Assembly: GCF_001646865.1 (NCBI RefSeq)
Contig: NZ_LRRB01000001.1
Span: forward strand, 1 to 64,000
Direction of reading: 5' to 3'
Origin: Aldersonia kunmingensis
Lineage (GTDB): Bacteria; Actinomycetota; Actinomycetes; Mycobacteriales; Mycobacteriaceae
Length of the DNA: 64,000 nt
Below, one piece after another: positions 35,288-58,626 of the stretch; within the stretch, counting starts at the first letter, position 1, and each line of letters begins with the position of its first letter. Made by a program: the position numbers and the translations under genes. The notes under the pieces are model-generated. The model had not been told where the DNA came from and ran no database searches. It saw only the letters and a program-made list of their open reading frames with translations.

Positions 35288-35296
35288 TCAGGGCCG

Positions 35297-37476: not shown

Positions 37477-37556
37477 GCGTCGCCGCGGGTCGGGGGCAGG
37501 TTTCGGTCCGGATGAGTTCACGGTGGCGAGTGATGCCGCGCGCGCGGACATACCGG

Positions 37557-38135: not shown

Positions 38136-38143
38136 ACGAGTGA

Positions 38144-38208: not shown

Positions 38209-38237
38209 CCTTACGCGTCATCTGCGAGGAGAGCCCT

Positions 38238-43263: not shown

Positions 43264-43644
43264 ATGAGCGAAGACCTGATCGCGGTCGGAACCGGTGTCA
43301 ATCTCTTCTCGGCAGGTGAGGTGCGAGGGGTCGCCCGTTGGTTCAACGACACATCCGACGTGCTGTCGATCGACGATGACGATCTCGAGGAGACCATCGC
43401 GTTCGTCAGCAAAGGCGGAATGACGTTCCTTTCGCCGATCCTGCCCGACCTGCGCGCGATCGTCTGCACGGCCGGCAGCCGGGAATCGCACCTGGCAATC
43501 CTGTCTCGCGAATCCGACGTGCCGTGTGTGCTCGCCGCCGAGTTGACCGGATCGGTCTCCGACGGCGACACCGTCGTCCTTCACCTGTCCGACGCCGAGA
43601 CGGCGCGGGTTGCGGTCGCGGCCACGGGGGCGGTGTCGGCATGA
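43264..43644 (+). CDS. Stand-alone phosphohistidine swivel domain protein
   Basis: This 126-residue protein is made almost entirely of a PEP-utilising-enzyme mobile domain. GGMTFLSPILPDLRAIVC replaces the GGxTSHxA approach strand, and the segment RESHLAILSRESDVPCVLAA holds His76 at the position of the phosphorylated histidine. The family motif TSHAAIVARE has become ESHLAILSRE. The C-terminus SVSDGDTVVLHL resembles the usual DGxxVTVD closing strand. ATG 43264 has GGAG upstream. It overlaps the next gene by ATGA and should be a phosphoryl carrier between a kinase-type donor and an acceptor protein. Confidence 0.82.
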   Translation: MSEDLIAVGTGVNLFSAGEVRGVARWFNDTSDVLSIDDDDLEETIAFVSKGGMTFLSPILPDLRAIVCTAGSRESHLAILSRESDVPCVLAAELTGSVSDGDTVVLHLSDAETARVAVAATGAVSA

Positions 43645-44837
43645 CGGCCCAGCTCTCCGCGCCCGCAAATCTGACGGCGCTCTACACCGATCCGGACTAC
43701 GAACCCACCCTCGACGAGTGGAACTGGCTGGTGCATGTCGCCGGCGCAGCCTACAAATCCGAACTCTCCGCCCGCACGGTGTTCGAGTCGGAACTGTTCG
43801 GGATGAACACCTACATCCTGATGTCGATGATGGAGGATTACCTGCGCGTTCCCGAGCGCATTCGCACCATTCGGAAGCACGCGACGCCGACCGAGCTCGT
43901 GCGCAAGGCTCTGCCCATCGGCAACAAGCGCAGCTTCATCAACCTTGCGGCGACGCCGCTGCACTACCTCACCGGCCGCGAGCTGTTCGTCGATCTCGGT
44001 GAGAACGAGTTGTCCGAGGGCCTCGAGGATCAGCTCGAGGTGCTGAGGTTCTGGCGTGAGGCGACGATCGCGATGCGAACAGACAACGTGCTGTTCAACA
44101 TGGATGCCGAGCCCGCCAATAGTTCCCACGTCGCCGGAAGCGACCTGCTGAATGAGATTCGGGCGCACCTCGTCCCCGCCGACGACAGTGTCAAGGCTGG
44201 GATCCGGAAGTTCGGTGCACGGCTGACGGCGTACGCGTTCCTGGAGAACTGCGACGCGCGTACGGCGGTGTGCGACACCGGCCCTTACCAGCTCGAGGAC
44301 GGGACCTTCCTCGCCCTGCGCGAAACGTGCGCGGACGGTGACGGCGACTTCCCGTGGGTCGACGGCATCCGAGAGACCCTGCCCTACCACCACTTCGTCA
44401 TCGCCCACCGGCTGCCGGCCACCGTGAAGATGGACAACAACGTTTGGGGCACAGCCTGGTTCACCCCGAGCGACTATCAGGCCGACATCATCGAGACCCG
44501 CGTCTTCTGTACCGACGGTGGAGATCTGCGCCCGCTTGATTCCGACGAGGTCGCCGAGGCGACCAACGCAATTCGCAAAGCGCACCGCGCGCTGTACCAG
44601 CGCCTGGTCGAGACCGAACCCGAGCAGCGCAACCTGTACGCGACCCAGATGTACGCGTGGAAGCTCAAAGCATGGGCACGCCTCGCCGGCTGCTATGACG
44701 AAATCGATTGGGCCATCACACCGCGCATCGCGGAATCCTTCGAGAAATTCAGCGACCCCGATCTCGCGCTCCAACTGATCGGCGGCGTTTTCGTTCCCCA
44801 AGATCGCGACGGATGCTTCCGTCCGCTGGGAGGCTAG
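43641..44837 (+). CDS. Unrecognised family U protein, member 1
   Basis: This 398-residue protein matches no family I know. It is paralogous to the C-terminal part of the next protein and to the product of 49369-50943. Shared features are ESELFGMNTYILMSMMEDY, the LTGRELF block, NCDARTAVCDTGPY, DFPWVDGI and NNVWGTAW. The common core motif is C-(D/E)-x-R-x(6)-GPY. No signal peptide is visible. Overlap with the swivel gene and the fusion found in member 2 indicate a physical partnership. I infer it binds the substrate that receives, or the phosphate donated by, the swivel histidine. Confidence 0.75.
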   Translation: MTAQLSAPANLTALYTDPDYEPTLDEWNWLVHVAGAAYKSELSARTVFESELFGMNTYILMSMMEDYLRVPERIRTIRKHATPTELVRKALPIGNKRSFINLAATPLHYLTGRELFVDLGENELSEGLEDQLEVLRFWREATIAMRTDNVLFNMDAEPANSSHVAGSDLLNEIRAHLVPADDSVKAGIRKFGARLTAYAFLENCDARTAVCDTGPYQLEDGTFLALRETCADGDGDFPWVDGIRETLPYHHFVIAHRLPATVKMDNNVWGTAWFTPSDYQADIIETRVFCTDGGDLRPLDSDEVAEATNAIRKAHRALYQRLVETEPEQRNLYATQMYAWKLKAWARLAGCYDEIDWAITPRIAESFEKFSDPDLALQLIGGVFVPQDRDGCFRPLGG

Positions 44838-44839
44838 AC

Positions 44840-46471
44840 ATGTCCATTCTTGGAAAAGGGTTGCCGTCCTACGCGTTTGCGCCAGTGACGGGAACGGTTC
44901 GGCACTTCCGCTCACCCGACGATGTCATCGACTCCCTCGACACCGACCTCGAATCGACGATCGCGCTCGTGGCCTCCGGAGGGACAACCTTCCTTTCGCC
45001 CATTCTGGGTCGGCTGGGCGGGATCGTCTGCCTGGATGGAACCCTCCGGTCCCACCTCGCGATTGTCTCGCGTGAATTCGAGGTTCCCTGCCTGGTCGGC
45101 ACCGAATTGGCCGAGGACATCGACGACGGAACCGAGATCACCCTCCGCGTCGAGGCCTCGACCGGGATCGTCTCGTCGCCCGAAGAGGCAGCTGAACTGC
45201 CTGCATCGGCGGATGTGAGCGCAGCGTGGTGGGACTACATCGGGCGAGTCGGAGACGAGATCGCGGTCAAGGACTTCGATGTAAAGGTCTCGGCCGAGGC
45301 GCTCGAGGCGTTGATCGCCGAGGAACTCACCGACGACCGTCTCGACGAGCTCGTCCAGCACATGGGCCGGGCGATGAAGCCGGAACTGACGCGCCGCTCC
45401 GGCTTCACGTCCGAGTTGTTCCCGATGCTGCCGTACATGTCGTTGTCGGTCATCGAGGACTTCTACACCTATGCCGATCGGGTACGGGCGATCGATGCTG
45501 TCGTTCCGGCCGAGGCGCTGGGGCGGATGCTGCGGGAAGGGCCGAACAAGATCAGCCCGCTGTGGATCTGGATGATCGGTTACCACTACCTGTGCGGGCG
45601 CGAATGCCTGATCAATATGGGTGAGATCGCGCCGGGCGACCACCGTGAGGACATCCGCACCGTCGTGGACTTCTGGCGGCGGCTCACCCTGGCGCACCGC
45701 GGCGACGGCACACTCGACTACAAGGACGCCGGCTTCACGAACCGTTACCTGCCGACCGAGACCGTCGACGCGTTGTCCAGTGCATCAATCGCTCTCGACA
45801 AGGATGCGGCGAAGAATCTCAAGCGGCTCAATGCCACCGTGTCGGGCTACTCGTTCCTCTACTTCTGCGACTCCCGGGTCGGGATCTGCGACTCGGGTCC
45901 CTATTCGCGACAGTCGGGGACGGGCAACCGGCAGACGATAGTGCGCGACTATCTGTCCCTCGGGCCCAGTTCGTGGGCATATCCATGGGCAGCCGATCTC
46001 GAGCCGCCGTTCACGGGACTCACGATGGTCCTGACCTTCGACCGGTCGAAGTTCACGGAGTTCGAGATCAACGACTGGGGAACGACATTCACCGAGCCGG
46101 ACCAACTTCTCGCTGCCGTGGACGAGGCCGCGGTATACGGCTACCTTGCCGACGGCACACGCAAGCTCATCGCGCCGGAGCAATGGTCGGCGGTCGCAGC
46201 GGAGCTGAGTCGGTCTCACATGAAGCTGTACCAACGATTCGCGGCGATGGACCGGAGCGAGCGAATCATGGCCGCGACGACCATGTACACCTCGGGGCTT
46301 CGGCCGTTCGCTGCCTATGCCGGCGCGACGGATCGCGTCGACTGGTCGATGTCCCCGAAAACCCTTGCGCTCTATCCCGATCCGTTCAATGACGACGACA
46401 AGGCCGCCGCGATATTCGGTGGTGCGCTGGTGGCGAATGAGCTGCCCGGATCGTTCTCGCCCATTCGCTGA
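44840..46471 (+). CDS. Fusion of phosphohistidine swivel domain and family U, member 2
   Basis: This protein has 543 residues. Residues 1-115 are a mobile domain: GGTTFLSPILGRLGGIVC and LRSHLAIVSREFEVPCLVG with His72. From about 130 the family U part follows, with TSELFPMLPYMSLSVIEDFY, LCGRECLINMGEI, FCDSRVGICDSGPYS, YPWAADL and NDWGTTF. The fusion is the best evidence that the two domain types work together. It begins two bases after the previous stop with GGGAGG as ribosome site. It is longer in the linker than members 1 and 3. Function is inferred as in member 1. Confidence 0.8.
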   Translation: MSILGKGLPSYAFAPVTGTVRHFRSPDDVIDSLDTDLESTIALVASGGTTFLSPILGRLGGIVCLDGTLRSHLAIVSREFEVPCLVGTELAEDIDDGTEITLRVEASTGIVSSPEEAAELPASADVSAAWWDYIGRVGDEIAVKDFDVKVSAEALEALIAEELTDDRLDELVQHMGRAMKPELTRRSGFTSELFPMLPYMSLSVIEDFYTYADRVRAIDAVVPAEALGRMLREGPNKISPLWIWMIGYHYLCGRECLINMGEIAPGDHREDIRTVVDFWRRLTLAHRGDGTLDYKDAGFTNRYLPTETVDALSSASIALDKDAAKNLKRLNATVSGYSFLYFCDSRVGICDSGPYSRQSGTGNRQTIVRDYLSLGPSSWAYPWAADLEPPFTGLTMVLTFDRSKFTEFEINDWGTTFTEPDQLLAAVDEAAVYGYLADGTRKLIAPEQWSAVAAELSRSHMKLYQRFAAMDRSERIMAATTMYTSGLRPFAAYAGATDRVDWSMSPKTLALYPDPFNDDDKAAAIFGGALVANELPGSFSPIR

Positions 46472-46495
46472 GCCTGCGTGAAAGGAGGCGCTGAC

Positions 46496-47641
46496 ATGCG
46501 CCAAGCAATGCAGAAACTTTTGAACGCCGACGAACTGCTGAGTCATCAGACACCGGAGACGTTCGCGACGATCAGTCAGGCCGATACGTCCTGGACCGAA
46601 AAGCTGTGGGCATCGCTGTTCGCTCGCGACGGATCGATTCAGGTCGACATCGGTCTCGGCAAGTACCACAACCGCAACGTGATAGATATGTTCGCCGGGG
46701 TTTCGCGGGGGAAGGAGCAGTTGACCGTCCGCGCGAGCCGGCAGCTCGATCTCGACACCGAGCGCGTCGGTGTCGGCCCGCTCGACTACGAGATCATCGA
46801 GCCGCTCCGCAAAGTCCGCTGGGTCCTTCAGGAAAACGATGTGGTACCTCTGCGTTTCGACCTCACCATCACCGGCGTGCTGCCGCCGTTTCTCGAACAG
46901 AAGGATGCGCAACGCGAGCCGCACGGTTTCCGCGTGCAATCCGATCTCCTCCGGTACCACCAGGCGTCGACCATCAGCGGTGAAATCTGGCTTGACGGCG
47001 AGCGGATCGAGGTTCGCGACGAGGAATGGTTCGGCTTCCGCGACCATTCCTGGGGTGTGCGCATGGATGTCGGTGAGGTCGCGCCGGACGTCTACAAGCC
47101 GCAGCGGCTCGATGGCGACTTCATTCTCACCTGGAGCCCAATGTGGTTGCAGCGCCCGGACGGAACGAGCTACGAGATTCACCACTACCTGCAGTCGGTG
47201 GACGGTGAAGTGACCTACTTCTCGGGCTTCGAGAACCTTCCCGACGGCACCCAACGCCCATTACTGGGGATGCGGGACGAGCTGAAGTACGACCCGGTCA
47301 ACCGGCGTCTGCTCGGTGGAAAGCTGACCTTCGACGCGGGCTGGGGAGAGACCCGGACGATCGAGATCGAACCGGTCAGCGACACCGGGTTCCATCTCGG
47401 CACCGGTCTGTACTTCGGATTCAAGGGCCATCGGCACGGGCAGTGGCACGGGCCCTCGCATCTCGATGGCGAGCGGTATTCCGATGTGGCGGAACCGAAT
47501 ACGGCGCGCGAGGTCCACCAGTTGCGTGACTGCGTGATTCGCGTTCGCGAGGGCGATGCAGTTGGCTACGGCATCTTCGAGTCGATGGTGATCGGCGATC
47601 ATCCCCGCTACGGATTGTCGAAGGAATCGTCCTTCCTCTGA
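46496..47641 (+). CDS. Conserved hypothetical protein, possibly DUF7064/AttH-CrtC lipocalin-like
   Basis: This 381-residue protein is rich in beta strands, aromatic residues and glycines. WFGFRDHSWGVRMDVGEVAP and FGFKGHRHGQWHGPSHLDGE are typical of DUF7064-like proteins and distantly of the AttH/CrtC two-barrel lipocalins, which bind or hydrate hydrophobic molecules. That relationship is a tentative judgement. ATG 46496 has AAAGGAGG about 6 bases upstream. It is the last gene of the first operon and ends just before a strong hairpin. Confidence 0.6.
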   Translation: MRQAMQKLLNADELLSHQTPETFATISQADTSWTEKLWASLFARDGSIQVDIGLGKYHNRNVIDMFAGVSRGKEQLTVRASRQLDLDTERVGVGPLDYEIIEPLRKVRWVLQENDVVPLRFDLTITGVLPPFLEQKDAQREPHGFRVQSDLLRYHQASTISGEIWLDGERIEVRDEEWFGFRDHSWGVRMDVGEVAPDVYKPQRLDGDFILTWSPMWLQRPDGTSYEIHHYLQSVDGEVTYFSGFENLPDGTQRPLLGMRDELKYDPVNRRLLGGKLTFDAGWGETRTIEIEPVSDTGFHLGTGLYFGFKGHRHGQWHGPSHLDGERYSDVAEPNTAREVHQLRDCVIRVREGDAVGYGIFESMVIGDHPRYGLSKESSFL

Positions 47642-47652
47642 CCGGAGTGTGA

Positions 47653-47689
47653 AATGGGACCGCGGACAACATTTGTCCGCGGTCCCATT
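47653..47689. terminator. Perfect 17-bp hairpin between convergent operon and luxR
   Basis: AATGGGACCGCGGACAA and its exact complement (47653-47669 with 47673-47689) enclose a 3-base loop. It lies 11 bases past one stop and 9 bases before the end of the convergent LuxR gene. No T run follows on the plus strand. It probably serves both directions. Confidence 0.75.
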
Positions 47690-47698
47690 GCTGTGTGG

Positions 47699-48529
47699 CT
47701 AGATGCGTTGTGCCCGAGCGAGCAACGCCAGCTCCATCCGGGATTGGCAGCCGGTGATCGTGAGGATTCGGGTGACGTACTTCTTCACGCTGTCCTCGGC
47801 GAGGGAGAGGATCTCCGCGATCTGAGCGTTCGACAATCCGTCGGCGACCAACGCAACGACCTGTCGTTGGCGTGCGGAGAGCTTGGTCAACGCCGCCTGC
47901 GGCCTCGATGCGGGAAGCCCACGGACCATCGCCGACATCTGCCGGCTGAGCAACCGCAGCGTGGCAGCCTCGGCAGTGCCGATCTTGCCGGGTTCCGGGT
48001 CGAACATCCCGAGCAGCGCGGTGTGGCCCGCACTCAATTCGAGGCGTATCGCGGCAGCGGTCTCCATGTGCCACGTGGAGTGGAGAAAGTAGCGGATGTA
48101 CGCATCGGCCGTGGGGGGCAACCGGCCCATGGATTGGAGCTCGTCCAGCGTTGACACACCGCTCGCGACGAGCTGACGCATAGCGACCGGGGTGCCGAAG
48201 ATGTCGTAGCGCGCCCACCGATCCTGGTACTCGGGCAGCATCTTGGCGGTCTTGCCGGCCGTCAGCGGCGCGGAGTCCTCGAACACCGTATGGAACGTCG
48301 GACCGGCGAAGAAGGACACATGCCGCAGCGCGAAATGCTCGCTGATCGCGTCGACGGCTCGTTCCTTGAAATCTGGAAGGCACGCGGCGTCGACGCACTG
48401 TTCGAGGATGTCGAAGGCGCGCTCGTAGTCGGCCTTGTCGAGGCCGGCGTTGCGTGGGGCTCGGGTTCGAGACGAAGACCTTGCGGTTCCGGAGTTCTCG
48501 GAAGTGTCCCCCAACGTGGACTGGGTCAC
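47699..48529 (-). CDS. LuxR-type response regulator between the two cluster operons
   Basis: This 276-residue protein has a C-terminal LuxR helix-turn-helix (LSARQRQVVALVADGLSNAQ, IAEILSLAEDSVKKYVTRIL). Its N-terminal part (from DYERAFDILEQCVDAACLPD) resembles a GAF or autoinducer-type sensing domain, and no receiver aspartate is obvious. I chose GTG 48529, the last sensible start before implausible sequence. Its first codons lie inside the conserved 43-bp element. It probably controls both operons. A start further downstream cannot be excluded as no ribosome site is convincing. Confidence 0.8.
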   Translation of the reverse strand: MTQSTLGDTSENSGTARSSSRTRAPRNAGLDKADYERAFDILEQCVDAACLPDFKERAVDAISEHFALRHVSFFAGPTFHTVFEDSAPLTAGKTAKMLPEYQDRWARYDIFGTPVAMRQLVASGVSTLDELQSMGRLPPTADAYIRYFLHSTWHMETAAAIRLELSAGHTALLGMFDPEPGKIGTAEAATLRLLSRQMSAMVRGLPASRPQAALTKLSARQRQVVALVADGLSNAQIAEILSLAEDSVKKYVTRILTITGCQSRMELALLARAQRI

Positions 48530-48547
48530 ATCACCGACAGTAACTAG
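48505..48547. promoter_or_regulatory. Conserved cluster upstream element, copy B
   Basis: This is the second copy of the 43-bp element at 43155-43197, with the same block order and spacing and the dyad GTCC-N8-GGAC at 48506-48521. It lies 102 bases upstream of the second operon and overlaps the start of the LuxR gene, so binding could also affect that gene. Confidence 0.75.
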
Positions 48548-48649
48548 CTTTAGCTCACATCGCAAAGAAGCCGGACATAAAAGGCCTGGTAAAGGCTTAT
48601 TTCTCTGGCGTGGGCGGCGTGCGCCGCTCCCGAAATCGAGTGAGGTGAC

Positions 48650-49363
48650 ATGTCCGACTCCGTTACATCCCCGAAGTGGGGAACGACCGAGATGCTGCCC
48701 CTGCCGGGCCGATTCAACACGGCCGTGCGGTCGGTGGCCGCGCAGCGGTTCGCCGCGGCAGGCGAGCAGTGGAAGAGCGTCGTATTCGATCGCGAGTTCG
48801 ATCTCTTCGCCGTCGAGGACGCGCGGGCCATCGAACAGGCTGCGCTCGACTCCGGCTACCGGTTCGAATATTCGGCGACGGTCTCGCTCGAATCCGAGCC
48901 GGACAAGTACAAGCGCGCCGACCGCGAGGCGCAGGCGTTCGCTGAGGAACTGGACTCGGACGGTCGCCGTCGTGCGGGTGTCGGCGACAACGTCATCAGA
49001 AAGTCCGAAACGGTCATCGGACCGGTCGCCCTCATCTCCACCATCGAGCACGTCATGGACTTCCTCACCGAGGGAATCCCACCGGGCACCATCGCCGTGA
49101 TCGACGACTCCGGCGGCACCCTGACGGCACCGATCATCGAGGGATTTGCCGGCGTCATCTGCCTCGGCGGCACCGTGCGATCGCACCTGGGCATCCTCGC
49201 CCGTGAGTACGACGTCCCCACGCTGATGAACTGCCGGATCGACGGGCTCCAGAACGGCGCCCTGGTCGAGATCGAGGTCACCGCGGCGCCGCCGGCGGCA
49301 GACGCATACGAGACGGGCGACACCGGGCATGCCCGGATCTGGCTGATCGAGAACGAGGGCTGA
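48650..49363 (+). CDS. Phosphohistidine swivel protein with N-terminal extension
   Basis: This protein has 237 residues. The first 100 form an unfamiliar domain rich in charged residues (FNTAVRSVAAQRFAAAGEQW). From about 110 a mobile domain follows: IPPGTIAVIDDSGGTLTAP, then VRSHLGILAREYDVPTLMNC with His179 in the phospho-acceptor position. ATG 48650 is preceded by GTGAGGTGAC. It leads the second operon, six bases before family U member 3, repeating the swivel-then-U gene order of the first operon. Confidence 0.8.
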   Translation: MSDSVTSPKWGTTEMLPLPGRFNTAVRSVAAQRFAAAGEQWKSVVFDREFDLFAVEDARAIEQAALDSGYRFEYSATVSLESEPDKYKRADREAQAFAEELDSDGRRRAGVGDNVIRKSETVIGPVALISTIEHVMDFLTEGIPPGTIAVIDDSGGTLTAPIIEGFAGVICLGGTVRSHLGILAREYDVPTLMNCRIDGLQNGALVEIEVTAAPPAADAYETGDTGHARIWLIENEG

Positions 49364-49368
49364 GACCA

Positions 49369-50943
49369 ATGGCGAACCTGAACTACCGCACCCTGCTGGA
49401 CACCAACAATTACCTGCGGAACCTGTCCGACACCACGTACTGGCTGTGCATAACGCGCACCGTGCAGGAGTCGAAGCTGTTCCCGATGAACCCGTACATG
49501 CTGGTGAGCTACCTCAACAGCTTCTACCGGCTGCCCACGTTGTTGCGCGAGATCGATGCGGCGACCCCGGCCGAGGAACTTGGCGACCGGGCCCGCGAGG
49601 TCAGCCTGAAGGTGGACACCGTGAACGCGGCGTGGGGTATGCCCGCGTTCTACCTCATCGGCCGCGAGATGCTGATGAATTGGGGCCTGCTGCGGCCGAC
49701 CGACGCGGTCGACGACGTCGTTGATGTGCTCGACTTCTCCAAGCGTTTCAATCTGGCGTACCACCGCAACGACGGGCACCTGACGAACAAGGAATTCGGC
49801 GACCGCAGCCAGTTCCTGCCCGAACGAACCCTGCAGGTTTTCGAGTCGGACCTGCACGGCGTGGTTCCCGGTGACCGGTTGCATACTGCCGCAACCAAAC
49901 TGGTTGCCCAGCTGTCCCAGTACGCGTTCCTCGCACACTGCGAGTGCCGGATCGGCCTGCACAACAGCGGCCCCTACAACTTCGGTGCCAACCGCCAGAT
50001 GATAATGCGGGACTTCTTCGACCTCACCGAGGGCGACTACCCGTGGCTCGACGGCATCGCGACCCAGTTGCCGTTCAACAACCTCACGATCCCAATCGTG
50101 TTCAAGGGCACCAACTTCCATCTCATGGACGACTGGGCGTCGTTCGAGGCCGAGCCCGGATACAACGCCGCCAACATCGAAGCAGTCGGCATGTACACCT
50201 CCGACGCGCTGACCGACGGCTACATCCCGGTCGGCATGGAGAACGCCGAGGTCCTCGCCGACACCATGGAGCAATACCGGGAGATCCTCAACGAGGCGAC
50301 GACCGACCTGTGGAAGCGGATCGCGAACTGGTCGCGCGAGCAGATGATCGACGCAGGCGCCCTGGTGTACTCCTCGGTCGCCAAGGACTTCGCGCATCTC
50401 GCGGGAACCTACCGCCAGGACGACTGGTTCCAGGTCGACGAGCGAGTGCAGCGGTTCAAGCCACTGCTCAACGACGAATACGGCCGCGACAATCTCGGCG
50501 AGATGGTCGGTCTGCTCGGTCTACCGCATCAGGCGAGCAACGAATACAGCATGGCCCGCTACTCGAGCGTGAACCGCAACATGCTCACCGGCATTCCGTA
50601 CTCGGTGCTTACCGACGACGACTATGCCGCGACCGCGGGCAATCAGTTTGCCGGCTCATCGAGCCTGCCCGGGAAGACCGGCCTGTGGACCACCAGCGCA
50701 GGGCGGATCGATATCGACGAATACAACCAGCGCGCACAGGGATTCACCCCCGCCGTACTCGAGGGAGGCAACCGCTACCTCGACGAGGAATGGGTGAAGT
50801 GGAACCACGGCACTGCCCAGGCGGACGAGCTGTACCGACTCGCACAGCGCGGTTCGCGCAACCTCGACGGCCGCGGTTCCGGACTGCGTCGAGCCGATCT
50901 GCCGTCTGCCGAAAGCAAGGGCAACGACGATGCAGATCGGTGA
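49369..50943 (+). CDS. Unrecognised family U protein, member 3
   Basis: This 524-residue protein is homologous over its first 300 residues to members 1 and 2. ESKLFPMNPYMLVSYLNSFY, LIGREMLMNWGLL, HCECRIGLHNSGPYN, YPWLDGI and MDDWASF align with the shared motifs. The cysteine after the Arg in members 1 and 2 is His here. Residues beyond about 350, with SVLTDDDYAATAGNQFAGSS, have no counterpart. It overlaps the ligase gene by 14 bases. The function is unknown and the pairing with a swivel protein is conserved. Confidence 0.75.
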   Translation: MANLNYRTLLDTNNYLRNLSDTTYWLCITRTVQESKLFPMNPYMLVSYLNSFYRLPTLLREIDAATPAEELGDRAREVSLKVDTVNAAWGMPAFYLIGREMLMNWGLLRPTDAVDDVVDVLDFSKRFNLAYHRNDGHLTNKEFGDRSQFLPERTLQVFESDLHGVVPGDRLHTAATKLVAQLSQYAFLAHCECRIGLHNSGPYNFGANRQMIMRDFFDLTEGDYPWLDGIATQLPFNNLTIPIVFKGTNFHLMDDWASFEAEPGYNAANIEAVGMYTSDALTDGYIPVGMENAEVLADTMEQYREILNEATTDLWKRIANWSREQMIDAGALVYSSVAKDFAHLAGTYRQDDWFQVDERVQRFKPLLNDEYGRDNLGEMVGLLGLPHQASNEYSMARYSSVNRNMLTGIPYSVLTDDDYAATAGNQFAGSSSLPGKTGLWTTSAGRIDIDEYNQRAQGFTPAVLEGGNRYLDEEWVKWNHGTAQADELYRLAQRGSRNLDGRGSGLRRADLPSAESKGNDDADR

Positions 50944-52399
50944 CCTGATCCGCCGCGCGGGGCGCCAATTCGGTTCAGCCCCCGCACTTGTCGACGGTGA
51001 CCGGGTGGTGAGCTTCGCCGAATTCGACGAACTCACCGACCGGCTCGGCCACGCGCTGCTGGCGCGTGGCCTCGCCGCCGGCGATCGAGTCGCGGTCCTC
51101 ATGCCCAACGGCATCGACGGGGTCGTCGTGTACTACGCGCTGGCAAAAGCTGGCCTGGTCCGGGTTCCGCTGAACGTCCGCGAGACCGCCCATGAGCACG
51201 CCTACAAGATCGACGACTCGCAGGCGCGAGCGCTGGTCTACGCGGGGGAGCCGCCCGCGCAGGTCGAGGTGATGATCACCGCGGACGAGTTGCCCGGCCT
51301 TATCGCCGGCGCACCCGACGGGCCGTGCGACGTTCGCCGGGACCCGGATGCGCCGTTGCGCCTCGCGTACACCGGTGGCACCACCGGCAAGCCCAAGGCG
51401 GTTGTCCTCACCACCCGCAGCGAGCTCGCCGAGGTGGACAACTTCCTGGTCGATCTGCTGCCCAACCTGCGGCCGGATTCGGTGATGTTGCACGCTGCGC
51501 CGATCACCCACGGCAGTGGAGCGTTCTTCCTTCCGCACCTGGTCAAGGGCGCGCCGAACGTCATCGTGTCGAAGTTCTCGCCGGCCGCGTTTCTCGAAGC
51601 CGCACAGAAGCACAGGGCCACATCGACATTCATGGTGCCAACGATGATCGCCATGTTGCTCGAGGATCCCGCGACCGCATCGGCGGACCTTGCGCTCGAG
51701 CGGCTCTGCTACGGCGGCGCACCGATCGCGACCACCGTCTTGCAGCGCGGAATCGATATTCTCGGTCCGGTCTTCGCCCAGTTGTACGGCCAGGCCGAGG
51801 CGCCGCTTGCGATCACGTGCCTGCAGCCGTGGGAGCACACCCCGGAACGACTCACCTCGGCCGGCAAGCCCTACACCTTCGTCGAGGTGCAGGTCCGAGA
51901 CATCGATGGCACAGTGCTCGGATCCGGGGGAGTGGGCGAGGTGCTGACCCGCGGCCCGCACACGATGGATCGGTACTGGCGTCGACCCGAGGCCACCGCC
52001 GAGACGATCGAGCCGGACGGCTGGCTGCACACCGGTGACATCGGCCGGTGGGACGACGACGGATACCTGCACCTGCTCGACCGCAGGCACGACGTCATCA
52101 TCTCGGGCGGTTTCAACGTCTACCCGCGTGAGGTCGAGGACGCGCTCCTGACCCATCCCGCCGTCGTCGAGGCCGCCGTCGTGGGCCTGCCGGACGACAA
52201 GTGGGGCGAACGCGTCGCCGCCGCCGTCGTCACCCGCTTCGACGCAGCGCCCGACGAAATCCTCGATTTCTGCTCCGATCGCCTGGCCGGCTTCAAAAGG
52301 CCACGGTCGCTGGAGATTTGGCCGAACATCCCCACCAGTCCGGTCGGGAAGTCCCTGCGCCGCGAAGTACGTGACCGCATGGTCGCGGCGCGGGCGTGA
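50930..52399 (+). CDS. AMP-forming acyl-CoA synthetase
   Basis: This 489-residue ligase has the adenylation P-loop YTGGTTGKPKAVVLT, motif LYGQAEAP, the hinge RWDDDGYLHLLDRRHD and the catalytic C-terminal Lys in SPVGKSLRRE. It is shorter than typical FadD proteins, close to 4-coumarate-ligase-like or cyclohexanecarboxylate-type enzymes. In the proposed pathway it would activate the acid made by carboxylation. Its position between the swivel/U genes and the PPDK-like gene ties CoA activation to the phosphoryl-transfer proteins. Confidence 0.92.
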   Translation: MQIGDLIRRAGRQFGSAPALVDGDRVVSFAEFDELTDRLGHALLARGLAAGDRVAVLMPNGIDGVVVYYALAKAGLVRVPLNVRETAHEHAYKIDDSQARALVYAGEPPAQVEVMITADELPGLIAGAPDGPCDVRRDPDAPLRLAYTGGTTGKPKAVVLTTRSELAEVDNFLVDLLPNLRPDSVMLHAAPITHGSGAFFLPHLVKGAPNVIVSKFSPAAFLEAAQKHRATSTFMVPTMIAMLLEDPATASADLALERLCYGGAPIATTVLQRGIDILGPVFAQLYGQAEAPLAITCLQPWEHTPERLTSAGKPYTFVEVQVRDIDGTVLGSGGVGEVLTRGPHTMDRYWRRPEATAETIEPDGWLHTGDIGRWDDDGYLHLLDRRHDVIISGGFNVYPREVEDALLTHPAVVEAAVVGLPDDKWGERVAAAVVTRFDAAPDEILDFCSDRLAGFKRPRSLEIWPNIPTSPVGKSLRREVRDRMVAARA

Positions 52400-52422
52400 C
52401 CCCGACACCGAAAGGACCCATC

Positions 52423-53031
52423 ATGCTCGACACCTACGAACTCACCGTTCACACGCTGACTCTGCGCCAGCTCGGATCCGCGGAACAGCTCGCCGACATC
52501 AACGCGCTCCCGGTCGCCGACGTCGAGGAGGCCCTGGAAAAGGCGGCAGCCAATGGCGCGGTGGTGAACGCCCGCGGGAACTTCATGATCAGCCCCGACG
52601 GCCGCAAGTTCCTCGAGGACGTCTACACGCGAGCGTTCGATCCCATTCGCTCGAATCCCGCGATCACCGCGGCGATGGACGCGTTCGAGACCGGTGTGAA
52701 CAAGCAGGTACTCGCGTTGACGACCGATTGGCAGACCATCGAGGTCGACGGCGCCCGCGTGAGCAACGACCATGCCGACGCCGACTATGACGCCAAGATC
52801 GTCGAGAAGCTCGGCCGCGTGCACGAGAAGACGCAGAAGGTGTTGCGTCCGTTGGCCGAGGAGGACCAGTTGGTCGATCGGTTCCTCGACCGCATCGGTG
52901 CCGCACTGGTCCGTGCCGAGGGCGGCGACACCGACTACGTCAGCGGCGTCCGCGTCGACTCCGTCCACACCGTGTGGTTCCAGATGCACGAGCACATCCT
53001 CCGCCTCACCGGACGGGAGCGTCCCGAATGA
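52423..53031 (+). CDS. Small helical protein with winged-helix-like N-terminus
   Basis: This 202-residue protein matches no named family I recognise. Residues 1-70 (TLRQLGSAEQLADINALPVA, VEEALEKAAANGAVVNARGN) look like a winged helix. The remainder is helical (NKQVLALTTDWQTIEVDG, LGRVHEKTQKVLRPLAEEDQ). It overlaps the PPDK-like gene as ATGA, so a subunit or regulator of that protein is likely. ATG 52423 follows AAAGGACC. Confidence 0.7.
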   Translation: MLDTYELTVHTLTLRQLGSAEQLADINALPVADVEEALEKAAANGAVVNARGNFMISPDGRKFLEDVYTRAFDPIRSNPAITAAMDAFETGVNKQVLALTTDWQTIEVDGARVSNDHADADYDAKIVEKLGRVHEKTQKVLRPLAEEDQLVDRFLDRIGAALVRAEGGDTDYVSGVRVDSVHTVWFQMHEHILRLTGRERPE

Positions 53032-54767
53032 GCACCGCTACCGGATTCCGCTGGCTCGTCATCCCCGACGAGAACACGGCCGAGCCGAGCCGCGACCTCG
53101 TTGGCGGCAAGGCGTGGAGCCTGTGGCGCATGCGGTCGCTCGGCCTGCGGGTGCCGCCGGCCTTCGTCGTCACCACCGATGCCTGCGCGGCCTACTTTGC
53201 CAACGGCGGTCTGCCCGAAGGTCTGGCCGACGAACTGGAGACCGGAATCCGTTTGCTGGAGAGCCAACTCGGTCGCACCTTCGGCGGGACCCGACGGCCC
53301 CTGCTCGTATCGGTACGATCCGGAGCAGCGATAAGCATGCCCGGCATGATGGACACCATCCTCGACCTCGGCTGTAACGACGAGGTCGAAACGGCGCTGG
53401 CGGCCGAGAGCGGGGACCCCGAGTTTGCCGCCGAGGTGCACCGCCGATTCACCGGCTTCTACGGCCGCCTCGTGCTGGGTTGCACCGAGGATCTCGAGGA
53501 TCTGCCCGATACCGCATCGGTCCGGGCCGCGATTTCGGCCGATACCGGGGACAGCGTCCCCGCCGATCCGTGGGCGCAGCTGCGTTCCGCTGTCGCCGCG
53601 GTTTTCCAGTCGAGTCGGTCCCGGCGGGCCATTGCCTACCGCAAGCACTACGGGATCCCCGAGGATCTGGGGACGGCGGTCACGATTCAGGCGATGGTGT
53701 TCGGCAACCTCGACGATGACTCCGGCACCGGGGTGCTGTTCACCCGCAACCCGGTCGACGGTACTCGCGAGCCCTACGGTGAGTACCTGCAGCGCGGGCA
53801 GGGCGAGGACGTTGTGTCGGGCCGGGTCACACCGAAACCGTTGTCCGACTTGGAAAGTCGCTGGCCCTCCGTACATGCGGAACTACTCGCAGCGGCCGAG
53901 TGCCTCGACCGCGAGGGCCGTGACGCACAGGATATCGAGTTCACCGTGCAGAGCGGCGAGTTGTTCCTGCTGCAGTCCCGCGCGGCGAAGCGCACCGCCC
54001 GCGCCGCGGTGCGTATCGCAGTCGAACTTGTCGATGAAGGCGTCCTCCAACCCGACGAGGCACTGAGCCGGGTCACCGCCGAGCAGATCCGGACCTTGCT
54101 TCGGCCGGAGATTGCCGCCGGTGCTGCCGACGGCGCGGAGGTTCTCGTGTCCGGCGTTGCCGCCAGCCCGGGTGTTGCCACCGGAGTCGTAGTTGACACT
54201 CCCGAAGCGGCACAGGCGAATCCGGGATGCATTCTGGTCCGCAAGTCCACCAGTCCGGACGACGTGCACGGCATGATTGCCGCCGCCGCAGTCGTCACCG
54301 AGCAGGGTGGCGCCACCTCACATGCGGCCGTAGTCAGCCGGGCACTCGACACTCCCTGCATCGTCGGTTGCGGCAGTGGCACCGTCGAGAGTCTGGTCGG
54401 TCGCGTCGTCACCGTCGATGCGACCACCGGCAACGTCTACGCCGGGGAACTGCCGACCTCGGCCGTCGACGAGAGCGAGGACGAGGACCTGCGCCGCCTC
54501 ACCGAATGGGCCGAGTGCCGCGCACCGCTCCAGGTGGGGACCGCCATTGCCATCGAACCGATCTTCGACGCGGACACCGGCTCCGCGGGGGATCTCGGTG
54601 AACAACTGCCCGAGATCCCACGCGGTACCAAAACCGTTCGTGGCGCGGTGTTCTGCGCCCCGGACGGCGTGCGTGCCGCGCTCGACGCGGGCGTCGAAGC
54701 CATCGTCGCCAGCCACCGGTTGCCGGTGTTGCTTGCCGCCATCGCACACCAGAGGAGAAGCGCATGA
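53028..54767 (+). CDS. PPDK-like ATP-grasp and swivel protein lacking the PEP/pyruvate barrel
   Basis: This protein has 579 residues, against about 880 for pyruvate phosphate dikinase. The N-terminal nucleotide-binding domain is complete: LVGGKAWSLWRMRSLGLRVP, SVRSGAAISMPGMMDT, LFTRNPVDG and DIEFTVQSGELFLLQSR. The swivel domain (from about 385) has EQGGATSHAAVVSRA with His432 as the phospho-acceptor. The C-terminal TIM barrel that binds PEP or pyruvate is absent, replaced by about 100 short residues. It should make a phosphohistidine from ATP and pass phosphate to something else. Mycobacteria have a similarly short PpdK of unknown role. Confidence 0.88.
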   Translation: MSTATGFRWLVIPDENTAEPSRDLVGGKAWSLWRMRSLGLRVPPAFVVTTDACAAYFANGGLPEGLADELETGIRLLESQLGRTFGGTRRPLLVSVRSGAAISMPGMMDTILDLGCNDEVETALAAESGDPEFAAEVHRRFTGFYGRLVLGCTEDLEDLPDTASVRAAISADTGDSVPADPWAQLRSAVAAVFQSSRSRRAIAYRKHYGIPEDLGTAVTIQAMVFGNLDDDSGTGVLFTRNPVDGTREPYGEYLQRGQGEDVVSGRVTPKPLSDLESRWPSVHAELLAAAECLDREGRDAQDIEFTVQSGELFLLQSRAAKRTARAAVRIAVELVDEGVLQPDEALSRVTAEQIRTLLRPEIAAGAADGAEVLVSGVAASPGVATGVVVDTPEAAQANPGCILVRKSTSPDDVHGMIAAAAVVTEQGGATSHAAVVSRALDTPCIVGCGSGTVESLVGRVVTVDATTGNVYAGELPTSAVDESEDEDLRRLTEWAECRAPLQVGTAIAIEPIFDADTGSAGDLGEQLPEIPRGTKTVRGAVFCAPDGVRAALDAGVEAIVASHRLPVLLAAIAHQRRSA

Positions 54768-55315
54768 CGACGTCGGAGCGGGTGACCCATCGCGAGGTGC
54801 GGGAAATTCTGCGCACCTTCCAGGAGTCCGGGTGGGCCTCGATGACCCTCGAACTCGACGGGATGCGCGTCACGGTGGGCAAGGACGGGCCTCCGGCAGC
54901 GGCAGGCCAACCGGCCCTTGTGGCCTCGGCGCCTGCGCCTGCGCCACCTGCGCCCGCTGCACCAAAGGCAGTGGCTGCACCGGAGGCTCCTCAGGCGCCC
55001 GCACCGGAACCGGTCAAGGCCGAGGCTACGGTTCCGGCGGCTCCGGCCGGCGTCGTCGACACCGCCGGCGCCATCGAAGTGAAAAGTCCCACCATCGGGG
55101 CGTTCTGGGTGGCACCAAGCCCGGGCGAGCCGCCGTTCGTACAGGTCGGACAGACCGTCGAAGCGGGCCAGCAGCTGGCGATCGTCGAGGTCATGAAGCT
55201 GATGAGTCCCGTGCTCGCACCGCAGGCGGGTGAGATCGTGCAGATCTGCGCCGCGAATGCCGGCCTGGTCGAATTCGATCAGTTGCTGTTCCTGATCAGG
55301 CCGACCGATGGCTAG
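54764..55315 (+). CDS. Biotin carboxyl carrier protein
   Basis: This 183-residue protein has an N-terminal helical portion, an Ala/Pro-rich linker (about 45-90) and a biotinyl domain with the lysine motif EVMKLM (Lys145). An AccB-type thumb precedes it (GAFWVAPSPGEPPFVQVGQT). ATG 54764 overlaps the PPDK-like stop. It carries CO2 between the carboxylase and carboxyltransferase encoded next. The architecture is that of E. coli AccB rather than a fused actinobacterial AccA. Confidence 0.92.
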   Translation: MTTSERVTHREVREILRTFQESGWASMTLELDGMRVTVGKDGPPAAAGQPALVASAPAPAPPAPAAPKAVAAPEAPQAPAPEPVKAEATVPAAPAGVVDTAGAIEVKSPTIGAFWVAPSPGEPPFVQVGQTVEAGQQLAIVEVMKLMSPVLAPQAGEIVQICAANAGLVEFDQLLFLIRPTDG

Positions 55316-56717
55316 CCCGTCGACCCTGACCGTCGAGGCGCCACGTCGGACGCCACTGCGACGAGTGCTCATCGCGAACCGCGGGGAGATCGCCGTGCGA
55401 GTGATCAAAGCGTGCCGCGTCCTCGGCATTGAAACGGTCGCGGTGACGTCGATCGTCGACCGGGACGGACTCGCGGCTCGGCTGGCCGATCGCGCCCTGT
55501 GCATCGGCCCGGCGCCAGCGGGGCAGAGCTATCTGTCGATCCCGGCAGTGATCAGCGCCGCCCTCGGCGCCGGCTGCGATGCGGTGCATCCGGGTTACGG
55601 GTTCCTTTCGGAGAACCCGGAATTCGCCGCCACCTGCGTGGACGAGGGACTGATCTTCGTCGGGCCGCGCCCGGATGCGGTCGCGCAGGCCGGCGACAAG
55701 GCCCGCGCTCGTGAGCTCGCCCGCTCGGCAGGCATCCCGGTGCTGTCGGGCTCGCCGATTCTCGAATCGGTCGACGCGGCGGTCGCCGCGGCGAACGAAC
55801 TTGGCTACCCGGTCCTGGTCAAGGCCGCCGCCGGCGGCGGCGGTCGGGGCATGTCGGTGATCGAGAACGAGGCCGAACTGCGGGCGCGCTGGTCCCCGGC
55901 CGCGGCCGAGGCACAGTCCGCCTTCGGTGACGGACGGCTCTACGTCGAACGGTTCATCCGCAGCGCCAGGCACATCGAGGTTCAGGTGCTCGGCGACAAA
56001 TACGGCTCGGTCATCCACCTCGGAGAGCGGGACTGCACCCTGCAACGGCGGCACCAGAAGGTGGTGGAGGAGTCTCCGGCTCCCAACCTGCCCGAGGAAA
56101 TTCGCCAGCACATCCGCCGCAGCGGCGTTGCGTTCGCCGAGGCTCTCGGCCTCGACAGCGCCGGGACCGTCGAATTCATCTACGACGCAGACACTCACGA
56201 GTTCGCGTTTCTCGAGTTCAACGCCCGAATCCAGGTGGAGCACCCGGTGACCGAGATGGTGACCGGTGTGGACCTCGTCGTCGAGCAACTGCGTTCGGCG
56301 GCCGGTGAACCGCTTCGGCTCACCCAGGACGACATCGAACTGAGCGGGCACGCCATCGAGGTTCGGATCACCACCGAAGACCCGGCGCGCGGCTTCCTTC
56401 CGAATCCGGGAACGGTGGAGACCTGGGATCCCCCAGAGGGCGAAGGGATCCGTGTGGACAGCCACTGCGAACCCGGATACGTCGTCACCCCGTATTACGA
56501 CTCCCTGCTGGCCAAGATCGTGGCGCACGGTCCCGACCGTGACGTCGCAGCGGATCGCATGGCCGCAGCGCTTAGCCGACTGGGGGTTACCGGAGTACCC
56601 ACCACCGCCGATTTCGCCCGAGTTGCGTTGGACCATCCGGATTTCCGGGCCGGCACAGTCACGACCGACTGGATTGCCGCCCGGGGGCTCCCCGATTACC
56701 TGGAGAAGATCTCATGA
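55308..56717 (+). CDS. Biotin carboxylase
   Basis: This 469-residue ATP-grasp enzyme carboxylates biotin using bicarbonate and ATP. Motifs are RVLIANRGEIAVRVIKACR, the glycine loop GGGGRGMSV, the EHPVTEMVTGVDLV block and the metal site EFNARIQVEHP. It overlaps the carrier gene by 8 bases. Free-standing subunits for carrier, carboxylase and transferase are unlike the usual fused actinobacterial acyl-CoA carboxylases, which suggests a dedicated carboxylase complex. Confidence 0.95.
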   Translation: MASPSTLTVEAPRRTPLRRVLIANRGEIAVRVIKACRVLGIETVAVTSIVDRDGLAARLADRALCIGPAPAGQSYLSIPAVISAALGAGCDAVHPGYGFLSENPEFAATCVDEGLIFVGPRPDAVAQAGDKARARELARSAGIPVLSGSPILESVDAAVAAANELGYPVLVKAAAGGGGRGMSVIENEAELRARWSPAAAEAQSAFGDGRLYVERFIRSARHIEVQVLGDKYGSVIHLGERDCTLQRRHQKVVEESPAPNLPEEIRQHIRRSGVAFAEALGLDSAGTVEFIYDADTHEFAFLEFNARIQVEHPVTEMVTGVDLVVEQLRSAAGEPLRLTQDDIELSGHAIEVRITTEDPARGFLPNPGTVETWDPPEGEGIRVDSHCEPGYVVTPYYDSLLAKIVAHGPDRDVAADRMAAALSRLGVTGVPTTADFARVALDHPDFRAGTVTTDWIAARGLPDYLEKIS

Positions 56718-58213
56718 GTTTCCTCGACAGCGCTCCCCGCAATCCCGACGGCAGTCGGCGCAAGATCGACATCGTCGACCAGACACTGCGAGACGGCCCC
56801 CAGAGCTGGTGGGGGATGCGGCTGCGCAAGGACATGGGCCTGCCTATGGCCGGCGAGCTGGACCGCACCGGCTTCCACACGATCGACCTAGCGGGCAGCT
56901 CGATCTTCGAGGTGCTTGTGCGGCACTGCAAGGAAGATCCGTGGGATCAGCTGATCTCGCTGTCGAAGGCGATGCCGGATACGACGGTCCGGGCGGGAAC
57001 CCGCAGCAACGGCATCGTGACGTTCGGTCTCACTGCCGACAGTGTGATGGACCTGTGGGTGCAGCGACTGTGCGCACACGGCATCGGCAGTTTCTGGATC
57101 TACGACGGCCTGTTCAACATCGACAAGATCGGCCGCCTGGTCAAGACCGTGCAGGCCGAGGGCGCAAAAGCCTTGCCCTGCATCCTCTATGCGGACACGC
57201 CCTACCACACCGACGAGTACTACGCGGACCGTACCCGCGAGCTCGTCGGGCTGGGCGCGGACGGAATCGAACTCGAGGACGCGGCGGGCCTGTTGACCCC
57301 CGAGCGCACCCGCTCGCTCATCGCGGCGATCAAGGGTGCGGCCGGAGACCTGCCCGTGGAGGTGCATTTCCACAGCAACAACGCGCTCGCGCCGATGAAC
57401 TACCTCGAAGCCGTGTTCGCGGGTGCGGATCGCGTGCACAGCGCGAGCCGCCCGCTTGCCGCCGGTGTTTCGCTGCCCTCGACAGAGAACACGGTGGCGA
57501 ACCTGCGCTACGCGGGATTCGATGTGGACATTGACGACTCCCGCTTCGCCGCGGTCGAGGAGCACCTGCTCCGCGTCGCCGAGTACGACAACCTGCCCGT
57601 CGGCCAGCCGGCCGAGTTTTCCCTGTTCCAGTATCGCCACCAACTTCCCGGAGGGATGGCCGGCACGTTCAAGGCGCAGCTGAAGGACCGCGGAATGGAA
57701 GACCGTTTCGAGGAGGTCCTGGACGAAATGTCGCGGGTGCGAGAGGAACTCGGCTACCCGGTCATGGCCACGCCGTTCTCCCAGCTGGTCGGTACGCAGG
57801 CGGTGCTGAATGTCGTGACGGGATCGCGGTATTCGGTGGTGCCGGACGAGGTGATGATCTACTCGAACGGCTTCTACGGCACACCCGTCGCGCCGATGGA
57901 TCCGAACGTGCTCGACACCATCATGAGCTCGCCGAAGGCGAAGAGCTACGAGAACTGGGAGCCGCCGCAGCCGAGCCTGGACGAACTGCGGAAGAAGTTC
58001 GGTGAGTCGATCAGCGACGACGAGTTGCTGCTGCGGCTGCTGGTGCCCGAGAACGATATCGACGTCATGCGTGCGACCCCGCAGCGCAACCGCGACTTCG
58101 CCCCGACTAGCACGCAGATGCGCTACATCCGGGAACTGGTCGAGACATCCGTGGGCGCCTACCTGCACATCGAGGCGGACGACTTCTCGCTGACGCTCGA
58201 AGGCGAGCACTGA
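56714..58213 (+). CDS. Pyruvate-carboxylase-type carboxyltransferase subunit (PycB/OadA-like)
   Basis: This 499-residue HMG-lyase-type TIM barrel has VDQTLRDGPQSWWGMRLRKD (metal Asp and Gln kept), KEDPWDQL, TRSNGIV (substrate Arg region), and the metal histidines EVHFHSNNA (His218 and His220). The lysine carbamylated in pyruvate carboxylase (KDMAG) is Glu188 here (LEDAAGLLTP), and the TSQP loop reads RPLAAGVSLPSTE. The acceptor may therefore not be pyruvate. It overlaps the neighbours on both sides. It would transfer CO2 from biotin to an enolisable acceptor such as a ketone. Confidence 0.88.
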   Translation: MSFLDSAPRNPDGSRRKIDIVDQTLRDGPQSWWGMRLRKDMGLPMAGELDRTGFHTIDLAGSSIFEVLVRHCKEDPWDQLISLSKAMPDTTVRAGTRSNGIVTFGLTADSVMDLWVQRLCAHGIGSFWIYDGLFNIDKIGRLVKTVQAEGAKALPCILYADTPYHTDEYYADRTRELVGLGADGIELEDAAGLLTPERTRSLIAAIKGAAGDLPVEVHFHSNNALAPMNYLEAVFAGADRVHSASRPLAAGVSLPSTENTVANLRYAGFDVDIDDSRFAAVEEHLLRVAEYDNLPVGQPAEFSLFQYRHQLPGGMAGTFKAQLKDRGMEDRFEEVLDEMSRVREELGYPVMATPFSQLVGTQAVLNVVTGSRYSVVPDEVMIYSNGFYGTPVAPMDPNVLDTIMSSPKAKSYENWEPPQPSLDELRKKFGESISDDELLLRLLVPENDIDVMRATPQRNRDFAPTSTQMRYIRELVETSVGAYLHIEADDFSLTLEGEH

Positions 58214-58626
58214 TGAGCGAGCTGGGGGTCGGGCGGCCGACCAAACGGCGGGCCGGGTCCGCAGTCGGCGGACTGCCCGTCGCCGATTCCCGGCCGGTTC
58301 TCGACGGTGACGCGGTGCTCGGTTCGCGCTGCACGCTGTGCCGATACGCCAGCGCGCAACGGAATCTGCCGTGGTGCCCCGTGTGCTATGGCGAACTCGA
58401 GCCCGCCCGCTTCCCTCGCACCGGCAGGACCTGGTCGTCGACCGTGGTCGCGATTCCCGTTGGTACGCGCAAGCCACCGTTCGGGCTGGCGTACGTCGAC
58501 CTCGACGATGGCCCCAGAGTTCTTGTCCACCTCGACAAACCAGCGGTACTCGAACTCGGTGCACGAGTGCAGATCAGCGGGACGGACGACGGTGACCTCG
58601 TCGCCGGCGCGGAGGTGCAGCGATGA
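58213..58626 (+). CDS. DUF35 zinc-ribbon/OB-fold protein
   Basis: This 137-residue protein has an N-terminal zinc ribbon (CTLCRYASAQRNLPWCPVCY) and an OB-fold (TWSSTVVAIPVG, FGLAYVDLDDGPRVLVHL). DUF35 proteins form complexes with SCP2-type thiolases or aldolases and stabilise them. It overlaps both neighbours, the carboxyltransferase and the thiolase, with which it probably assembles. Confidence 0.9.
   Translation: MSELGVGRPTKRRAGSAVGGLPVADSRPVLDGDAVLGSRCTLCRYASAQRNLPWCPVCYGELEPARFPRTGRTWSSTVVAIPVGTRKPPFGLAYVDLDDGPRVLVHLDKPAVLELGARVQISGTDDGDLVAGAEVQR

Follow-up and report, generated by a model that had tools for sequence, protein, structure and literature searches.

The 64,000-nt stretch of DNA analysed here (the window; positions 1 to 64,000 of contig NZ_LRRB01000001.1 of Aldersonia kunmingensis, assembly GCF_001646865.1) carries a gene cluster that likely encodes a multi-component small-molecule dikinase initiating the phosphorylation-dependent carboxylation of a ketone. 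The cluster contains three small phosphate carriers, the phosphohistidine swivels sw1, sw2 and sw3, each paired with a member of a protein family referred to as U, and probably tags a recalcitrant compound with phosphate prior to CO2 addition and breakdown. It further encodes a protein resembling pyruvate phosphate dikinase (PPDK; P0006), its partner P0008 and a biotin-dependent carboxylase (Table 1). The components, their pairing, the fusions between them, the conserved histidines and the homologous carboxylase are evident at the sequence level. The module itself is supported by genomics, from which we infer phosphotransfer between these proteins, a role of U as acceptor and the substrate class; U would bind a small-molecule substrate and accept the phosphate.

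Family U is paired with phosphohistidine swivels across genomes

The original prediction, made from the window alone, had listed three swivels (His76, His72, His179), each adjoining or fused to one member of a single family. Indeed, sw1, swU2 (a natural fusion of sw2 to a U domain) and sw3 all score above the PF00391 (PEP-utilizers) cut-off of 23.1 bits, with their phosphohistidines at exactly positions 76, 72 and 179, respectively. The common ancestry of the three U members was borne out by a homology search with U1, which found three places at E ≤ 0.01 in the 5.6-Mb genome, all of them in the window: U1 itself, the C-terminal part of swU2 (31% identity, E = 6.4e-47) and U3 (29% identity, E = 1.2e-30). 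Swivels were detected at four places on the window contig, i.e. sw1, swU2, sw3 and the PPDK-like protein.

Scanning genome contigs with U1 revealed 26 orthologous loci from Rhodococcus/Rhodococcoides, Pseudonocardia, Amycolatopsis, Gordonia, Nocardia, Millisia, Skermania, Hoyosella, Antrihabitans and two Actinomycetota metagenome-assembled genomes (MAGs). Together with the window, two orthologous operons (29 in all) and 15 distant loci (L046–L054, L100–L105), this amounted to 44 loci, in which 99 of 100 U domains have a swivel on the same strand within 600 nt. The one exception, in Novosphingobium (L046), has its swivel 8 kb away in the same cluster. As 29 of the 44 loci are orthologous operons, a further sample from another order matters. 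In the order of genome G016 (same phylum), U is present in 29 of 58 genomes, and a swivel lies directly 5′ of U in all 25 loci found by U alone (one per genome, covering 25 of the 29 U-positive genomes; G016's own is distant locus L050). Within their ~1.5-kb flanks, 12 of these 25 loci also carry a relative of P0008. U is otherwise uncommon, occurring in 6 of 396 genomes in a phylum-level sample and in 9 of 397 in an order-level sample, with the window's own genome counted in both. The original prediction had named a scarcity of U homologues beside swivels as grounds for abandoning it; the 44 loci and the 25 of the other order instead show the two together almost without exception.

The gene set sw1–U1–swU2–Rv3169–luxR–sw3–U3–ligase–P0008–PPDK is kept in the orthologous loci as far as their stretches reach, with some exceptions: swU2 is missing in L028 and L030, Rv3169 and luxR (the latter at the same place in most orthologous loci) are missing in L033 and L034, and the two cluster halves are oppositely oriented in L028, L029, L032 and L035. 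In L033 and L034, sw2 and U2 are separate genes, which makes the window fusion swU2 a Rosetta-stone link; a single open reading frame (ORF) encodes swivel, U and P0008 in L047 of R. opacus B4. Across 34 pairs drawn from 21 of the 44 loci, the trees of U and swivels agree with r = 0.876; for 18 pairs restricted to the window and the distant loci, r is 0.884. In either case, 0 of 2000 permutations reached the observed value. Gene fusion and tree agreement support a physical pairing of swivel and U.

Distant loci follow the order swivel–U–P0008–PPDK in L049 and in L100–L102, where this minimal operon stands alone. Variants are U–swivel–P0008–PPDK with a short ORF in between (L054) and U, swivel, P0008-like, DUF7065 protein, PPDK (L048). 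Elsewhere, distant modules adjoin DUF7064/7065 proteins, alcohol and aldehyde dehydrogenases, and phosphatases. Plasmid matches of U come from Rhodococcus, Novosphingobium and Paraburkholderia, on replicons that measure 0.24 to 1.8 Mb. Two further observations concern the module's surroundings: one Actinomycetota MAG carries an extra, divergent pair of the sw1–U1 type beside its normal cluster (L034, 4686–6318), and Rv3169-family/DUF7064–DUF7065 proteins recur by swivel–U modules (the window, L047, L048, L049, L101, L102 and L131).

Searches match family U to no recognised family and U1 to no solved fold

No Pfam, NCBIfam or PDB sequence match to U1 was found at E ≤ 1, RPH (rifampin phosphotransferase) models being among those of NCBIfam, and family U as a whole has no Pfam or NCBIfam match over cut-off. 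Two Pfam matches of U3, DUF1707 (17.2 bits, E = 0.0053) and DUF4088 (12.6 bits, E = 0.097), were below cut-off and disregarded. A phage origin was likewise discarded, as U1 matched nothing in a phage collection. In the open-licence literature, we found no paper describing family U or the swivel–U module.

The motif C-(D/E)-x-R-x6-GPY, put forward as shared within the family, is present in all three window members, but generalises only in part: family-wide, R, G and P are fixed and Y is kept in 33 of 34 members, whereas C is not general. Residues invariant across these 34 members from 21 loci are R113, F200, R207, G214, P215, P276 and Y338 (U1 numbering).

PDB sequence comparison covered U1, and structure models covered U1 and swU2. 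An AlphaFold2 model of U1, built from 42 alignment rows (of which the L034 row carries an out-of-frame N-terminal stretch outside the U1 columns), reached a predicted local distance difference test score (pLDDT) of 90.4 and a predicted template modelling score (pTM) of 0.91. Foldseek returned no PDB match to this model at E ≤ 0.001 (best E 1.3). The best VIA-align hit, aerobactin synthetase IucA (Z 2.3 over 92 residues), and the best match in a viral structure library (E 0.63) were both unusable. In these searches, the U1 model thus has no counterpart of meaningful score among solved folds, although a missing match is no proof of a new fold and U may still be related to HpeH or to the RIF-binding domain of RPH at the level of fold. 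The original description of the family as unrecognised therefore stands, and the known, unrelated enzyme fold that would have spoken against its proposed role did not emerge.

Carrier swivels and a barrel-less PPDK-like protein

The carrier histidine is kept in 34 of 34 swivels of the paired subset. A model of the swU2 fusion (pLDDT 89.6, pTM 0.77) aligned with the phosphoryl-carrier domain of PPDK (2fm4; E = 1.8e-4, root-mean-square deviation (rmsd) 3.3 over 128 columns) and with RPH (5hv2; rmsd 2.7 over 114 columns), lengths that fit the swivel part alone.

The presumed phosphate donor, P0006, matches the Pfam families PPDK_N and PEP-utilizers and belongs to NCBIfam PRK05878 (NF004531; cut-off 456 bits). 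No match to the phosphoenolpyruvate (PEP)/pyruvate barrel (PF02896) was found in P0006 at E ≤ 1, and its alignment with solved PPDKs ends at their residue ~538, in line with the barrel-less, PPDK-like ATP-grasp protein that had been predicted in this operon. That prediction had omitted the protein's own swivel as well as the surrounding carboxylation genes. The swivel histidine, His432, is kept in 11 of the 11 PPDK-like partners reaching it (the stretch of L046 stops short), and K28, R97, D302, E304, Q316 and R318 are kept in 12 of 12, as judged by alignment; the ATP-site and histidine roles of these residues are presumed from the PPDK literature. PPDK-like relatives in L049, L054, L100, L101 and L102 measure 826–851 amino acids (aa), those of L054 and L101 with a weak PEP-utilizers_C match. 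Of the 26 orthologous loci, 23 include a PPDK-like gene in the cluster (L012 and L034 break off ahead of where it would lie), as do 10 of the 15 distant loci. A P0008 relative is present in 12 of these 15.

P0008 itself gave a weak winged-helix hint (Pfam wHTH-PRTase_assc, E = 0.23, below cut-off). Members of its family were detected in 27 of the 296 phylum genomes sampled, a count that includes the window's own genome. Of 24 loci located through P0008 alone (L061–L084; 1.5-kb flanks), 10 have a PPDK-like gene as a neighbour; one of these 10, L061, is U locus L054.

The module is embedded in a probable carboxylation pathway

Downstream of P0006 follow genes for a biotin carboxyl carrier protein (BCCP), a biotin carboxylase, a PYC_OADA-type carboxyltransferase, an OB-fold protein (which we take to be DUF35-like), a thiolase and a phosphatase-like protein. 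A hidden Markov model (HMM) of the latter, built from the orthologous operons L045 and L055, where the gene is uninterrupted and annotated as tyrosine-protein phosphatase, matches 59762–60025 and 59998–60498 in different frames, reflecting either a sequencing error or a real lesion.

This set of functions recalls the Hpe pathway for acetovanillone, in which the kinase HpeHI is followed by the carboxylase HpeCBA acting on the phosphorylated ketone, the phosphatase HpeD, the CoA synthetase HpeE and the cleavage enzyme HpeF (PMC9618137). HpeI is the ATP-grasp protein and HpeH contains the swivel, as stated in a second report (PMC12167813). A Rhizobium leguminosarum plasmid locus (L058), called Hpe-like from its gene set, stands in for the HpeH, HpeI and HpeCBA sequences; it encodes a 603-aa protein of the PRK08296/RPH type, a separate ATP-grasp protein, a HAD hydrolase and an acetoacetate–CoA ligase. 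The biotin carboxylase and carboxyltransferase of the window share 50% and 40% identity, respectively, with their counterparts in L058, whose swivel kinase occupies the same place. The window hence looks like an Hpe-like pathway whose kinase would be the PPDK-like/swivel/U system. Among distant loci, Novosphingobium L046 combines a single U3-like gene with carboxylase, CoA ligase, thiolase and sw3-, P0008- and PPDK-like genes, and L103–L105 also carry carboxyltransferase genes.

Upstream of the cluster (29213–39377) lie genes for a flavin-monooxygenase-like protein, a mycofactocin-coupled short-chain dehydrogenase/reductase, an acyl-CoA dehydrogenase and a CoA ligase. The flavin-monooxygenase-like gene (36172–37416) scores 130.3 bits against the HsaA model, far below its cut-off of 450. 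As relatives of this gene occur in just four of 39 loci (38 with U plus L058), namely L019, L029, L045 and L055, it provides only a hint at a cyclic or aromatic substrate; literature on R. oxybenzonivorans and strain P23 yielded nothing useful in this respect.

Relatives of the carboxyltransferase were also observed in Caballeronia NK8 (L057), with accB/accC and acetoacetate decarboxylase, and in Cnuibacter (L059), with 3-oxoacid CoA-transferase and thiolase, neither gene table containing a kinase. These are possibly biotin-dependent ketone carboxylases that need no phosphorylation.

Table 1. Genes of the cluster, with their positions in the window and the basis of each assignment
Feature	Position	Strand	Basis
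sw1 (P0001), stand-alone phosphohistidine swivel, 126 aa, His76	43264..43644	+	PF00391, 35.1 bits
U1, family U, 398 aa, putative acceptor/substrate-binding subunit	43641..44837	+	no Pfam/NCBIfam/PDB sequence match at E ≤ 1
swU2 (P0003), natural swivel (His72)–U fusion, 543 aa	44840..46471	+	PF00391, 38.1 bits, N-terminal part
Rv3169-family (DUF7064/7065-related) protein, recurring module neighbour	46478..47641	+	NF053593, 387.5 bits (cut-off 150)
LuxR-type regulator within the cluster, start approximate	47699..48511	-	helix-turn-helix/LuxR annotation in L045, L055
sw3 (P0004), swivel, His179, ~100 extra N-terminal residues	48650..49363	+	PF00391, 25.3 bits
U3, family U with C-terminal extension, 524 aa	49369..50943	+	U1 homology, motif
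AMP-forming acyl-CoA ligase	50930..52399	+	NCBIfam PRK06187, 391.7 bits (below cut-off 476)
P0008, 203 aa, partner of the PPDK-like protein	52423..53031	+	recurrence; fused to swivel–U in L047
PPDK-like protein (P0006), barrel-less, PRK05878 type, ATP-grasp and own swivel (His432), presumed donor	53028..54767	+	NF004531, 770.3 bits
BCCP	54764..55315	+	Biotin_lipoyl, 64.3 bits
Biotin carboxylase	55308..56717	+	identity to that of Hpe-like cluster L058
Carboxyltransferase, PYC_OADA type	56714..58213	+	identity to that of Hpe-like cluster L058
OB-fold protein adjoining thiolase	58213..58626	+	OB-fold domain-containing annotation in orthologous operon L045
Thiolase family protein	58623..59762	+	Thiolase_C_1, 145.1 bits
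Tyrosine-phosphatase-like gene, split over two reading frames	59762..60498	+	HMM built from L045/L055

A proposed phosphorelay and its alternatives

We propose that the PPDK-like protein, with its partner P0008, would move phosphate from ATP to its own His432 and from there to the histidine of sw1, sw2 or sw3, each acting as a discrete carrier; alternatively, its ATP-grasp domain might load the carrier directly. The carrier would then dock on its cognate U, which would hold the acceptor substrate and be the site of hydroxyl or enol phosphorylation. The biotin enzyme (54764–58213) would subsequently carboxylate the phosphorylated ketone. Once the phosphate is removed, the CoA ligase would activate the product for cleavage by the thiolase. 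The overall logic would follow the Hpe pathway, except that another family serves as acceptor. In a tentative and rather doubtful extension of this scheme, U would be a novel fold serving as acceptor in swivel-type phosphotransfer, and the module would be a soluble catabolic relay akin to the phosphotransferase system, running from ATP via the PPDK-like histidine and HPr-like carrier swivels to the substrate on the cognate U, with an ordinary PPDK lent from elsewhere in the genome acting as donor in the lineage of loci L131–L137.

Several observations weigh against the proposed relay. The agreement between U and swivel trees ignores shared species history, and the phosphatase-like gene of the window is frame-split. 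Carboxyltransferase genes are found in only four of the 15 distant loci; carboxylation is thus not the general purpose of the module, which serves other pathways, too. In a strict motif scan, all four patterns were present in merely three of 11 PPDK-like proteins, but since the alignment shows the residues themselves to be kept, the scan was too stringent and was replaced by the alignment. Moreover, a PPDK-like gene is missing between the genes for P0008 and the carrier protein in L033, and from five of the 15 distant loci: L047 (17 kb), L050 (20 kb) and L051–L053, the latter three being devoid of P0008 as well, on contigs that are short or end near U. In L131–L137, which come from the other order, a local PPDK-like gene is missing in seven of seven cases, and the donor may differ in this lineage.

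The latter loci would suit a scenario in which the PPDK-like protein is not the donor at all and swivel–U pairs obtain their phosphate from full-length PPDK or Enzyme I instead, the more so as eight of the 10 genomes searched in the L131–L137 order (six of the seven L131–L137 genomes are among the 10) have a PPDK-family match over cut-off elsewhere (open frames of 510–1219 aa, six of the eight spanning 886–923 aa). The presence of the PPDK-like gene in most orthologous and distant clusters argues against this scenario, which we deem improbable. The pairs might also be regulated enzymes, with U catalysing a different reaction (as isomerase, hydratase or lyase) and the swivel phosphate signalling the energy state, a role that has been put forward for VadK with regard to the methylcitrate cycle. 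We take VadK (Rv1127c of M. tuberculosis) to be a member of PRK05878, the family of P0006. It autophosphorylates on His422 and is described as a regulatory histidine kinase (PMC13400623). The 11 distant modules without a carboxyltransferase gene in the stretch covered also fit regulation, and the recurring Rv3169-family/DUF7064 proteins might be the enzymes served. Against this speak the swivels of PPDK and RPH, which carry phosphate to small molecules, the phosphatase genes near several modules, which fit a transient phospho-substrate, and the match of the window operon to the functions of the Hpe pathway, so that regulation appears unlikely as the role of the pairs.

Finally, U could be distantly related to the acceptor domain of RPH/HpeH, in which case the cluster would amount to an HpeHI-type kinase split into separate parts. 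The same position in the pathway and the homology between the carboxylases of the window and the Hpe-like cluster speak for this view. However, PRK08296 and RPH models find the HpeH-like protein at up to 772 bits, while U1 lacks any NCBIfam match at the threshold given above, and hhalign assigned a probability of 0.3% to a relation between U and the HpeH-like acceptor–swivel protein of L058, the latter entered as a single sequence. Similarly, the swU2 fusion finds RPH over 114 columns, whereas U1 alone has no PDB match. The donors differ as well, being of the PPDK type with its own swivel in the window and of the PEP-synthase type, with no swivel match listed, in the Hpe-like cluster. A dismembered HpeHI therefore seems very improbable, and we favour the relay from the PPDK-like protein via carrier swivels to U.

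Comparison with known phosphotransfer systems

Family U, an undescribed family recurring beside phosphohistidine swivels, would add to the few systems that use a swivel to phosphorylate something other than pyruvate. RPH is one chain with one phosphohistidine; the window, by comparison, has two conserved histidines, one on the donor and one on the carrier. The resemblance to RPH drawn in the original prediction stands for the ATP-grasp protein and the swivels, but does not, at the sequence level, extend to U, as U1 has no RPH-model match at E ≤ 1 and U no sequence relation to the HpeH-like protein. What both systems share is an ATP-grasp domain and a phosphohistidine swivel, which in RPH brings the phosphate to a small-molecule-binding domain (PMC4844700). 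PPDK and PEP synthase have homologous ATP-grasp and swivel domains, but P0006 has no match to their PEP/pyruvate barrel. Phenylphosphate synthase PpsAB and CreHI are two-part dikinases, which phosphorylate phenols; they differ from the window system in having acceptor subunits that align with HpeH at ~45% identity (PMC12167813).

Closest in donor architecture is VadK, which shares ATP-binding and phosphohistidine domains without a PEP barrel, a catalytic histidine and a small adjoining partner gene. The product of this gene, Rv1126c, improved VadK solubility. In contrast to the window proteins, VadK is described as a regulatory autophosphorylating kinase, and the part of its account considered here mentions neither a separate swivel gene nor a U-like protein (PMC13400623 for all three statements). 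P0008 is possibly a general partner of PPDK-like proteins, perhaps of VadK. Our findings suggest that PPDK-like proteins lacking a barrel, of which VadK is the published example, can act as donors to separate carrier–acceptor pairs.

The Hpe pathway for acetovanillone/4-hydroxyacetophenone in Rhodococcus rhodochrous GD02 has in common with the window a kinase composed of ATP-grasp and histidine swivel, a three-subunit biotin carboxylase, a phosphatase, an acyl-CoA synthetase and a cleavage enzyme. It differs in that the acceptor of the window is family U, without sequence relation to the HpeH-like protein, that there are three swivels, as separate small proteins or in one fusion, and that the donor is of the PPDK type with its own histidine swivel, such that donor and carrier each hold a conserved histidine. 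In addition, the window's phosphatase is tyrosine-phosphatase-like, whereas HpeD is NagD-like, and a thiolase takes the place of the Hpe β-ketoacyl-CoA hydrolase. The comparison predicts a second version of phosphorylation-dependent ketone carboxylation, relying on a different kinase acceptor.

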